Part shown: piece after piece, positions 3,536 through 49,350 of the stretch
Layout: each line of letters opens with the position of its first letter
Numbering within the stretch: the first letter of the stretch is position 1
Source: Candidatus Gastranaerophilales bacterium
GTDB lineage: Bacteria > Cyanobacteriota > Vampirovibrionia > Gastranaerophilales > Gastranaerophilaceae
DNA: 64,000 bases
Assembly (NCBI GenBank): GCA_944325025.1
Contig: CALUYN010000003.1
Location: forward strand, 32,202-96,201
Direction of reading: 5' to 3'
Position numbers and translations under genes: made by a program
Notes under the pieces: generated by a model
Database searches by the model: none
What the model saw: the letters and a program-made list of their open reading frames with translations, nothing else
What the model was told of the DNA's origin: nothing

Positions 3536-3545
3536 GGGGGGGGGG
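3536..3545 (+). repeat. 10-G homopolymer at an SDR gene breakpoint
   Basis: Ten consecutive G residues in otherwise AT-rich DNA. SDR-like coding sequence begins directly to the right of the tract; the sequence to the left is not SDR. See findings. Confidence 0.95.
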
Positions 3546-3950
3546 CTGGAACTGTATGAAATATGAATTATACAAATGCTAAAACAAGAAGAAAAAGGCT
3601 GCATTGTAAATACATCTTCTCAAGGCGGAATAACAGGTTTTCCGGGACAAGCAGCATATATTGCCTGCAAACACGCTATTATTGGTTTAACAAGAACCGC
3701 ATCAATTGATTACGCAGCGCAAGGTATCAGAATTAATGCAGTACTTCCAGGGGTAATACTTACTCCTATGGCAAAAGATATTATCAAAAGAAATCCTGCA
3801 ATGGAAGAAGCTATGGTGAGAGATATTCCAAAAGGCAGGCTCGGTGAACCTTACGAAATTGCACATGCTGTTATGTGGCTGTGTTCTCCGTATGCAACAT
3901 TTGTTGACGGTGCGGCGATTTCAGTAGACGGCGGATTTACCATACATTAA
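3546..3950 (+). pseudogene. Short-chain dehydrogenase/reductase, 5'-truncated
   Basis: The 124 aa from ATG 3576 are the C-terminal half of an SDR: NTSSQGGITGFPGQAAYIACKHA carries the catalytic Ser and YxxxK, followed by GIRINAVLPGVILTPM and DGAAISVDGGFTIH. The Rossmann nucleotide-binding half (TGxxxGIG) is missing. In another frame the bases between the G tract and 3576 read WNCMKYELY, which is where a family member would continue into QMLKQ; a one-base loss in TACAAATG breaks that frame. So the remnant is both truncated at the G tract and frameshifted. No function expected. Confidence 0.7.
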
Positions 3951-11948: not shown

Positions 11949-12548
11949 ATGAAAAATGCATTCACTTTGGCTGAAGTTCTTGTAACTGTTGGTATAATAG
12001 GTGTTGTAGCAGCAATGACAGTACCGAATTTGATGGAAAACTATCAGCGTCAAAGTTATATTACTCAGTTAAGAAAGGTTTATTCAGAAGTATCTCAGGC
12101 TGCAGATGCAGCATTAGGAGAAGGTAACACCCCTCGTTTACGTGAAACTCCGGCAATGAGGCAGGGTAACTTTATTACTAATTATTTTAAGACTACGCAG
12201 ACATGTAATGCAGATAATCTTACAGATTGCTTTGGAGATGCATACACTTCAATAAATGGGAGTACTATTAGGTTTAGGGATTATGTTTCCGGAGATGCTT
12301 CCTGTGCTGTTGTTGCCAGTGGTTATGCTATTTGTTTGAGCGGCAGGGAGATGATTACAGTTGATGTAAATGGTAAGCAGGGGCCAAATGTACTTGGACG
12401 AGATTTATTTGCTTTCTTTTTAAATGATGACGGTTCTGTTTCTTCCATCATGTATCCTGGAAATGCCACTGCTGATAGTTGTACTGCTGGTGATTATGAT
12501 GCTTGCTTTGCTAAAATCTTAAATGACGGGTGGGTAATGGATTATTAA
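11949..12548 (+). CDS. Type IV pilin-like prepilin
   Basis: 199 aa. The very short leader MKNA is followed by FTLAEVLVTVGIIGVVAAMT, the N-methylation helix with Glu at +5. The residue at -1 is Ala rather than the usual Gly. The globular part has three Cys pairs and the segment ITVDVNGKQGPNVLGRDLFAFF, which recurs in the second prepilin (VDVN...KGPNVLGKDFF), a feature of this lineage's pilins. It would be inserted in the inner membrane, processed by a prepilin peptidase and assembled in a pilus or pseudopilus. SD: GAGAGGATATT. Monocistronic. Confidence 0.9.
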   Translation: MKNAFTLAEVLVTVGIIGVVAAMTVPNLMENYQRQSYITQLRKVYSEVSQAADAALGEGNTPRLRETPAMRQGNFITNYFKTTQTCNADNLTDCFGDAYTSINGSTIRFRDYVSGDASCAVVASGYAICLSGREMITVDVNGKQGPNVLGRDLFAFFLNDDGSVSSIMYPGNATADSCTAGDYDACFAKILNDGWVMDY

Positions 12549-20818: not shown

Positions 20819-21008
20819 ATGAATATCTGCAAAATGGAATTTTATCTATAATGAATAATTTTTATGTTATTTCCGGATTAATCGATTTATAATCCGCTCT
20901 TAAGTTTTACAAAAAATACTCAATTAATCATCCGCCAAGGGATAAACAAACTTTATTTTTTATGATATTCTAATCATATGAAGAAAGGGTTAAATGAAAG
21001 GAGAATAT

Positions 21009-22092
21009 ATGAGAAAACATAATTACTGGAGCTTCGGGGGGGGGGGCTTTAGGCTCCGCCGGAGGCTCGGAAGATAAGAAGATAGGAAGATATGCCTTTA
21101 TCGGGGAGCGCAGCTCACAAAAAAATAAATACCTTCCCTTATTAGGGAAGGTTAAGGATTGGTTTCAAACAATACCCACCCCTAGCCCCTCCCTGATTAG
21201 GGAGGAAAATAATTTCTTAAAACGAACTTATTCACTTAAGAAAAAATCTGCCTTCACATTAGCTGAGGTTTTAATTACCCTCGGCATCATCGGTGTTGTT
21301 GCAGCTTTTGTGCTTCCTGCTTTTGTGAAAAGTTATCAGGAGCGCCAGTATGCTGTTATGTGGAAGAAAAAATATAGTGAAATTGCACGTATTTATAATC
21401 TTGTCAACGATGAAATGGGAGGTAATATCTGTGTTGCGACAAAAGATGGGGACTTTAATATTCCTGTTAAATGTGCAAAACCAGGCATAGGGTTTCAATC
21501 CAATTCTGAGTATTCAACTTTGTCCCCCGAGTTTGTTGAAAAATTTGTTTCATATTTTAAAGTGATTGAAAGCTGTGGTTTTCCGCAATATGGCGAGAGT
21601 GAGTATTGTGCAAATTATTATTATCCATGGACAGGATTATGCGGAGGATCTGCGGCTAATAGTATGTATGATAGTTTGAAAACTTCTTCTCCGGCCTCCC
21701 TAAGAAAGCAGGAACGCCCAACTTCATGTCCTAATACTGGAACTTTATATACTGGTTGGGATTTTATGCATAAGGCTATTTTGTTGCCCGATGGGACAAC
21801 GGTTTATTTTGGCGGCTGGGCTACAGGTATGATAGCTGTTGATGTTAATTCTTTTGCTAAAGGACCCAATGTACTCGGTAAAGATTTTTTTGCTGCTATG
21901 GTTACTGATGATTGGATTAAACCTATAGGGGCAGAAGGAACATTTAACAGAAATACAAATGGTGAAGTTTGTGAGTGTTCACCTGATTTTGGGGTTGAGT
22001 CGGGGCAGGGCTTTTTAGGTTCATCTAATCTATTGGATGGAAAAGTTCTGTCCGGAGCCTGTTGCAGTTCTGAAAAATTATATTCATACTAA
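21009..22092 (+). CDS. Type IV pilin-like prepilin, frame broken at an 11-G tract
   Basis: ATG 21009 has a strong AAAGGAG (20997-21003) and reads MRKHNYWSF into eleven G residues, after which that frame stops at 21077. The frame one base over is open from 21013 to 22092 with no start codon before the pilin helix and reads SLKKKSAFTLAEVLITLGII with a normal prepilin body. Ten or thirteen G would join the two. The joined protein has a leader of about 80 residues encoded partly by palindromic repeats (21050-21215). The body shares VDVN...KGPNVLGKDFF with the prepilin at 11949 and has about 14 Cys, ending CCSSEKLYSY. Ala, not Gly, is at -1. Confidence 0.75.
21036..21046 (+). repeat. 11-G homopolymer in a prepilin leader
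   Basis: Eleven G in a row, ten codons after a well-supported start codon. It separates the start from the pilin frame by one base. See findings. Confidence 0.95.
21050..21215 (+). repeat. Palindromic repeats inside a prepilin leader
   Basis: CTCCGCCGGAG, GAAGATAAGAAGATAGGAAGATATG, CTTCCCTTATTAGGGAAG and CTCCCTGATTAGGGAG follow each other without a stop codon in the pilin frame. Related strings lie in the repeat island at 48870-49030. Confidence 0.65.
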
Positions 22093-48663: not shown

Positions 48664-49350
48664 AAGTGAATAAGTAAATGGGTGAATAAGAGAATAAGTC
48701 TTTACGGTGCGCGAAGCGCACGTAAAAATATCATCTTGCAAGGTAAGAACAAAAAATAATCATACCCTCGCCCCTTGTGGGAGAGGGAAAAATTTCTTAG
48801 CGAGCGAATGTGAGCTTAGAAATTTGGGTGAGGGGTCTGTTGGAAGCCCGAATGTTAGGAACGCAGGAGGGCAAGCTTATTTAGAAGATAGGAAGTTAGG
48901 AAGGTATGAAGATAGGTTATTAACAGAAAATAACTTACCATCTTATCCTCCTATATCACACCCACCCCTTTACTTCCCCTCCCCTCAAGGGAGGGGAAAA
49001 AGAAAGCTCACCTCACCCCTCTCCCACAGGAGAGGGGTGCTACGCACGTAGACCTGTTATACAATTTATGTCAGCATTTGTCATGTAATCGTGAGGGTTC
49101 TACGATAATCGTCATTGCGGACAGCGAAGCTGATCCGCAATCGCATTATTAGCAAAAGTCGACGATTTTGCGATTCCGTGTCAAGCACGGAATGACAGCA
49201 TAATTTAAAGCTTAGACAATAACTGGTGTTGTTTCACATACATTGATTGTTCACTACGTAAATGCCGGATTATTTTTCTATTTTACGGTGCGCTTTAGCG
49301 CACCGTAAAGACTTATTCGCTTATTCACCTATTTACTTACTCACTCACTT
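48664..49350. mobile_element. Repeat island with inverted ends, MITE-like
   Basis: The left end (48665-48728, GTGAATAAGTAAATGGGTGA... CTTTACGGTGCGC) is the inverse of the right end (49281-49349) over about 60 bp with few mismatches. Inside lie further palindromes: 48760-48840 (CCTCGCCCC ... GTGAGGGG), 48968-49040 (CTTCCCCTCCCCTCAAGGGA, CCTCTCCCACAGGAGAGGGG), 49111-49143 and 49170-49199 (REP type). No transposase and no convincing gene. The right end abuts the rsmG stop codon. It may be a non-autonomous element or a pile-up of several. The remainder of 48255-49351 outside it is the small-RNA region. Confidence 0.6.

Follow-up and report, generated by a model that had tools for sequence, protein, structure and literature searches.

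A G tract as a probable slipped-strand switch in a large family of type IV prepilin genes of Candidatus Gastranaerophilales

In the stretch of DNA analyzed here (64,000 nucleotides (nt) of contig CALUYN010000003.1 from a Candidatus Gastranaerophilales bacterium, assembly GCA_944325025.1; hereafter the window), a type IV prepilin gene, which we call the window gene, has a run of G at its 5′ end. This tract is probably a slipped-strand phase-variation switch, one of several dozen. Translation would begin at an ATG about nine codons upstream of the tract. At a tract length that unites the frame of this ATG with that of the pilin, the product would be a prepilin with a long leader, and prepilin peptidase would cut directly ahead of FTLAEV, so that tract and leader would be discarded and the mature pilin left unaltered. 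At lengths that do not unite the frames, translation would end shortly past the tract. The modal length in the genus, ten G, is out of frame for most prepilins and would keep the bulk of the repertoire OFF, and a one-unit change in a tract would turn a single prepilin ON.

The features of the window gene are collected in Table 1. An initial annotation had described a start codon with a strong ribosome site, a tract of eleven G nine codons further on, an early end to that frame and, in the neighboring frame, a prepilin with no start of its own, and all of these are present. Nine codons separate the ATG at 21009 from a run of exactly eleven G, and its frame soon closes at a TAA. In the neighboring frame is an open reading frame (ORF) of 359 codons from stop to stop, which ends at 22090–22092 and carries FTLAEVLITLGIIG. 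Between the tract and the prepilin motif, this frame contains no ATG, GTG, or TTG; the earliest is a GTG at 21310, downstream of the motif. The two other frames of the leader hit stops 28 and 3 nt past the tract. The annotation's arithmetic, by which ten or thirteen G would unite both frames, is right. G8 has seven overlapping matches in the window (from two tracts), where 0.16 would be expected, and in 100 shuffles seven was never reached.

Table 1. Features of the window gene, in window coordinates
Feature	Position	Strand	Basis or remark
Ribosome-binding site AAGGAG	20998..21003	+	window sequence
Start codon ATG	21009..21011	+	27 nt upstream of G tract
G tract, eleven G (putative switch)	21036..21046	+	window sequence
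TAA stop closing the ATG frame at the current tract length	21075..21077	+	window sequence
Leader, tract to pilin	21047..21252	+	pilin frame open; dispersed repeat copies within
Repeat of ~74 nt inside the open leader	21132..21205	+	copies elsewhere in the genome
Prepilin, F(+1) of FTLAEVLITLGIIG through stop codon	21253..22092	+	motif, Pfam, TIGR02532, dN/dS

The predicted product has a prepilin-type N-terminus, with cleavage/methylation motif and hydrophobic stretch, by two models: positions 21241–22089 match Pfam PF07963 (N_methyl) with 21.9 bits (cut-off 21.2) and TIGR02532 with 20.7 (cut-off 16.3). Read from the ATG at 21009, the protein would carry a leader of about 80 residues with KKKSA as the final residues ahead of the cleavage site, and the genome encodes a prepilin peptidase (PF01478, 34.3 bits; cut-off 26.5) that could process it before surface display. 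A tract-free prepilin at 11949–12548 of the window has the short leader MKNA ahead of FTLAEV and represents the plain form of the family. The repeat of ~74 nt inside the open leader occurs at ten further places in the genome with 81–87% identity across some 70 nt or more; one other copy has 75% identity and two have 70%, and there are shorter matches. It has a CTCCCTGATTAGGGAGG end, and five of the ten other copies lie within ~450 nt of another tract.

What had been observed in a single gene extends genome-wide and family-wide. The whole genome (G000; 1.76 Mb in 43 contigs) contains 57 G runs of length eight or more, with ten G in 42, eleven in five, nine in four, eight in four, and twelve in two. 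Genes with a prepilin motif hold 34 of the 57 tracts, and every one of these 34 has a start supported by a Shine–Dalgarno (SD) sequence 25–51 nt upstream of the tract, at exactly 30 nt in 15 cases. Thirty nucleotides is also the most frequent start–tract distance in the prepilin cassettes of three species, namely G000 and two sister species of the same genus, G099 and G196. The same architecture is found in 34 prepilin genes read in G099 and 38 read in G196 (the latter reading covered 49 of 119 tracts). On the coding strand, 27 of the G000 genes have G and seven have C, and 26 of the 106 prepilins of the three species have poly-C. Three other genera of the family show the architecture as well, at other tract lengths, and seven family genomes, picked partly for richness in G tracts, have from 36 to 121 tracts each. 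In genus g38 (genome G134), no prepilin cassette was present at any tract among the loci read. Three g38 loci (L499, L503, L507) have G8–G10 runs that end a ~36-nt repeat (ttttggaataagaatgagatttaaaataaattccga) outside prepilin genes, which is a different poly-G family. A protein search with the window pilin returned 51 matching stretches in the genome, some of them second pieces of one gene, which means that tract-free prepilins exist too. Four paralogs of a large prepilin-like protein (FTLAEMMVVMLILSI; L097, L100, L102, L104) measure 574 to 712 codons from stop to stop, with one clipped by the end of its stretch; at their tracts, two of the four are out of frame and two are in frame.

Of all the evidence that the tract is there to be read through, the open frame behind it weighs most. 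In the three species, we defined a cassette as a start, a tract, and a prepilin motif within 1.2 kb (n = 101). In 98 of these 101, no stop interrupts the pilin frame between tract and motif, over a median of 76 codons, where shuffling of each stretch would leave 9.1 of 101 open; the two alternative frames of these stretches are free of stops in 9 of 202 cases. The three broken cassettes are L084, L390, and L442. Such selection on the frame argues against chance, against decay, and against a purely regulatory leader peptide. When the frame was called by comparing the SD-supported start with the long downstream ORF, mixed states were found: 8 of 34 prepilins are in frame in G000, 11 of 31 classified in G099 (three of the 34 were left unclassified), and 1 of 37 classified in G196 (one of the 38 was left unclassified). 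Together, 20 of 102 are in frame, less than one third (P = 0.0016). In the three other genera, the start is in frame at 2 of 20 prepilin loci, with lengths of 8 to 11; part of the g41 sample had been selected for a length of exactly nine G, and the count excludes two g12 prepilin loci that have no start. Non-pilin coding tracts are in frame in 5 of 8 cases in G000, 4 of 4 in G099, and 2 of 4 in G196, and all are G10 in G099 and G196, as are 7 of 8 in G000. Translations read by eye place the in-frame G10 tracts of L077, L116, L103, L108, and L107 in FtsH/AAA-like, AAA-like, and glycosyltransferase-like ORFs and in an unknown protein.

Orthologs of the window gene bear on whether its tract is an accident of one assembly. 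A DNA match spans the pilin in 4 of the 33 other same-genus genomes searched, all from sister species (G099, G196, G044, G073). Each ortholog has a short leader, TTC followed by ten G, and an SD-supported ATG 26–29 nt upstream of the tract; G099 has a second SD-supported ATG at 42 nt. In all five species in which the gene was found, the ATG and the pilin are in different frames. The initial annotation had named a sequencing error as the rival to a switch, and the same out-of-frame state in all four sister species disfavors it. More broadly, the oddity could be confined to the window tract, as an assembly error or a decaying pseudogene. Homopolymers are difficult to sequence, and the window gene lacks the CA that trails most tracts and has an offset unlike that of its relatives. 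Set against this, besides the tracts of the orthologs, are the non-pilin genes that are in frame at G10, so the assemblies show no simple one-way miscount, and the conservation of the mature protein. While the leaders diverge strongly, the aligned mature parts are 70–85% identical to that of the window gene, with ratios of nonsynonymous to synonymous change (dN/dS) of 0.12 (G000/G099), 0.13 (G000/G196), and 0.15 (G099/G196). These values indicate that the gene is maintained despite its out-of-frame state in each assembly. Seventeen pairs were entered in this analysis and two without the motif were dropped; among the 12 prepilin pairs other than those of the window gene, ten yielded a ratio, from 0.08 to 0.55. 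We regard an error or decay limited to this tract as very improbable.

Tract length varies between relatives, and this variation alters the frame. Among 39 reciprocal best pairs from the three species, length differs in 13, many of which have replaced leaders, and some of which may be paralogs. A strict set was kept in which the 30 bases before and the 40 bases after the tract are at least 80% alike. Eight pairs remain, seven of them prepilins. Of these seven, three differ in tract length and two in the bases adjoining the tract, and in two the frames match in one species but not in its partner; the lone non-pilin pair shows no difference. The clearest pair has identical flanks, with eleven G in frame in L408 and ten G out of frame in L407. 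Another pair, L067 and L414, is 99% identical over 1610 bases and differs beside the tract, so that L414 is in frame and L067 is not. The window gene and its G099 ortholog differ in one G and in two bases that follow the tract. Along with the recurring architecture, the mixed frames, and the selection on the frame, these one-G differences lend support to the reading first offered for the window gene. Reversible change of tract length within a population, with an ON/OFF phenotype, would be expected to follow.

Several observations weigh against a switch in the DNA. The variation in length is seen between species, from which variation within a population is inferred. The excess of out-of-frame genes comes mainly from G196 (1 of 37, P = 6e-6), while G000 (P = 0.15) and G099 (P = 0.68) singly fit random frames. 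In one glycosyltransferase-like gene, six of nine species have G10 and the other three have an equally long stretch that is interrupted, with no change of length. The leaders are long, with a median of 104 amino acids in G000 and a range of 20–294. A missing MutS as the cause is ruled out by the presence of MutS1; to our knowledge, Campylobacter and Helicobacter are unlike this genome in that regard. Tract length is sharply peaked at ten (42 of 57 tracts in G000, 34 of 47 in G099, 41 of 49 in G196, within ranges of 8–12, 8–13, and 8–11), and 71 of the 102 classified prepilins miss the frame by an identical offset. Both would also be predicted if RNA polymerase, or the ribosome, slipped on the G run, so that every out-of-frame gene gave some full-length product and the length in the DNA was purposely kept constant. 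A stop codon frequently stands close behind the tract, and 30 of the 106 prepilins, the window gene included, have no ATG, GTG, or TTG between tract and pilin, both of which suit such a correction. However, it is opposed by the alleles already in frame in the DNA (20 of 102), by the 26 prepilins with poly-C rather than poly-G on the coding strand, and by the non-pilin coding tracts, nearly all G10, of which many are in frame. Furthermore, the offset at nine G in g41 is the opposite one, and lengths of nine and ten both occur, which argues against any fixed ribosomal shift shared by the family. A programmed ribosomal frameshift was rejected as the shared mechanism on the grounds that the offset is not the same in every genus and that some versions are poly-C. 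Correction at the RNA level thus seems unlikely.

A further group of adverse observations concerns starts downstream of the tract. Some in-frame ATG, GTG, or TTG follows the tract in 76 of the 106 prepilins, and in 32 of them, 19 from G196, such a start is supported by an SD sequence. These starts would fit a tract that is part of a short regulatory leader peptide, with the pilin translated from its own later start. The small ORF of the tract often ends in FGGGAL-stop in this genus and in GGG-stop in g41, where four loci (L471, L475, L481, L484) keep it apart from a pilin that has its own ATG; there, the small ORF is ~9–12 codons long and ends in GGG-stop, with a T-rich stretch behind it that by eye is hairpin-like. 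The initial annotation had held that a relative with another functional start near the pilin helix would refute a switch. This has been borne out in part, as three of the four window-gene orthologs have a possible in-frame later start: G073 has ATG 27 and 42 nt ahead of the helix, with no SD sequence by the criterion used, one of them predicted to give a leader of nine residues; G099 has a TTG at 36 nt with GGAGG; and G044 has a TTG at 18 nt. The G196 ortholog and the window gene have none. For the window gene itself, control by a leader peptide fits poorly, there being no in-frame ATG, GTG, or TTG between tract and motif; 29 other prepilins lack one as well. An open frame from tract to pilin, kept far above the shuffled expectation, would also be needless for a leader peptide. 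We regard this arrangement as unlikely, and as somewhat less probable than correction at the RNA level.

The sequence around the tract also calls for comment. TTC-Gn-CA is found at 30 of the 57 G000 tracts, and the unit of the genus is TTC-G10-CA, often with AGCT close by. The exact 15-mer TTCG10CA occurs in 18 of 21 same-genus genomes, at 2 to 46 copies apiece, and outside the genus in 14 of 267 genomes; a reversed control pattern is present, at one or two copies, in 4 of the 288 genomes. In viral contigs, TTCG10CA had 37 matches. In named genomes, TTCGGGGGGGGGGCA has at least 113 matching stretches, and among the matches listed, 49 belong to Candidatus Gastranaerophilales or Melainabacteria, five to Fusobacterium sp. 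CAG:439, and the rest to other organisms. The flanks are not restricted to prepilins. We picked ten tracts in or adjoining non-pilin genes (three glycosyltransferase-like ORFs, two AAA-like, and five others; one, C16:3985, may sit just upstream of its gene), of which eight have TC before the tract, nine have CA after it, and seven have both, against frequencies of 7–10% for TC and 9–20% for CA at shorter window runs, of three to six G, that served as controls. Of the 13 remaining non-prepilin tracts, six resemble prepilin cassettes that are orphaned or broken, and the other seven, which are mostly non-coding, have TC once and CA once. In 22 of 26 poly-C prepilins, the flanks read on the G strand score beyond the 95th percentile set by short control runs of G; read on the other strand, the flanks of the poly-C prepilins misfit. 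Two other genera share a unit of their own, Gn-TAGAAACAGA, in opposite orientations to the gene (by eye).

Something retains both flanks at the DNA level. Conservation of a short peptide was rejected as the cause, given that non-pilin genes read the flanks in different frames and poly-C genes bear them on the opposite strand. The two orientations, though not the non-pilin genes, could be the product of a few ancient inversions at AGCT repeats. For six non-pilin genes, the idea that a mobile unit had inserted at the tract was rejected: in 30 ortholog stretches chosen from a longer listing, tract-free orthologs mostly show a non-G stretch of the same length, the exceptions being a 6-nt difference (C24 glycosyltransferase-like gene, one C42 ortholog) and gaps of 1–3 nt in C23. 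In sister orthologs, same-length sequence, G-rich but interrupted in several non-pilin genes, mostly stands in for the tract, which indicates that in these six genes it arises or decays in place. It is conceivable, though doubtful, that the switch is a DNA element recognized by its sequence and not a passive homopolymer, in which case a dedicated factor might spread the element, hold its length, or set the rate of switching. The second tract of the window, G10 at 3536–3545, has the flanks AAA and CT and lies shortly upstream of an ORF (3576–3950) that by eye resembles the C-terminal part of a short-chain dehydrogenase and is not a prepilin. Elsewhere in the window, an inverted repeat of 51 nt (48665–48715 and 49295–49345) is 92% complementary, with 579 nt between its arms.

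If the switch is real, a single gut genome of 1.76 Mb holds a large phase-variable prepilin repertoire, with 34 tract-bearing prepilins, and cells of a single strain would be predicted to wear differing pilus sets. Such differences would bear on attachment, phage attack, and immune recognition in uncultured gut bacteria. The conserved flanks also raise the general question of whether some homopolymer switches are recognized elements rather than passive repeats.

While type IV pilus genes have been reported in Gastranaerophilales from gene content (PMC5877343), a limited literature search turned up nothing that describes phase variation in the lineage, in line with the initial annotation. The mechanism is known elsewhere, in the pili of Bifidobacterium and in Campylobacter and Neisseria. 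The sortase-dependent pili of Bifidobacterium breve UCC2003 have a G-tract ON/OFF switch for which slippage was measured (PMC9187656). As described there, that system also belongs to a gut commensal and a pilus gene, has an intragenic tract of 10–11 G, is out of frame in the annotated sequence, and unites two ORFs through a change of length, the second ORF having no active start. It differs in comprising two clusters of sortase pili, where we find dozens of type IV prepilin genes, and the available text of that report makes no mention of a flank motif common to other genes. For its part, the window gene matches N_methyl and did not qualify as a sortase-dependent subunit, no search for a sortase motif having been made. 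In Campylobacter, the poly-G/C phasome is reported to comprise 5–81 phase-variable genes per strain, with tracts of at least seven G/C counted and poly-G lengths of nine in 53% and ten in 26% (PMC6321876). Poly-G within ORFs and peaked lengths are common to both, whereas here one gene family, the prepilins, dominates, and the tract flanks are conserved. In pathogenic Neisseria, repeats were reported in 145 of 205 pilC sequences and 23 of 607 pilS alleles (PMC5953494), so that there, too, components of the type IV pilus are switched by repeat tracts; according to the same source, the pilin itself varies mainly by recombination, whereas here many full prepilin genes each own a tract. What seems new is the size of the repertoire within one pilin family, the lineage in which it occurs, and the flank motif.
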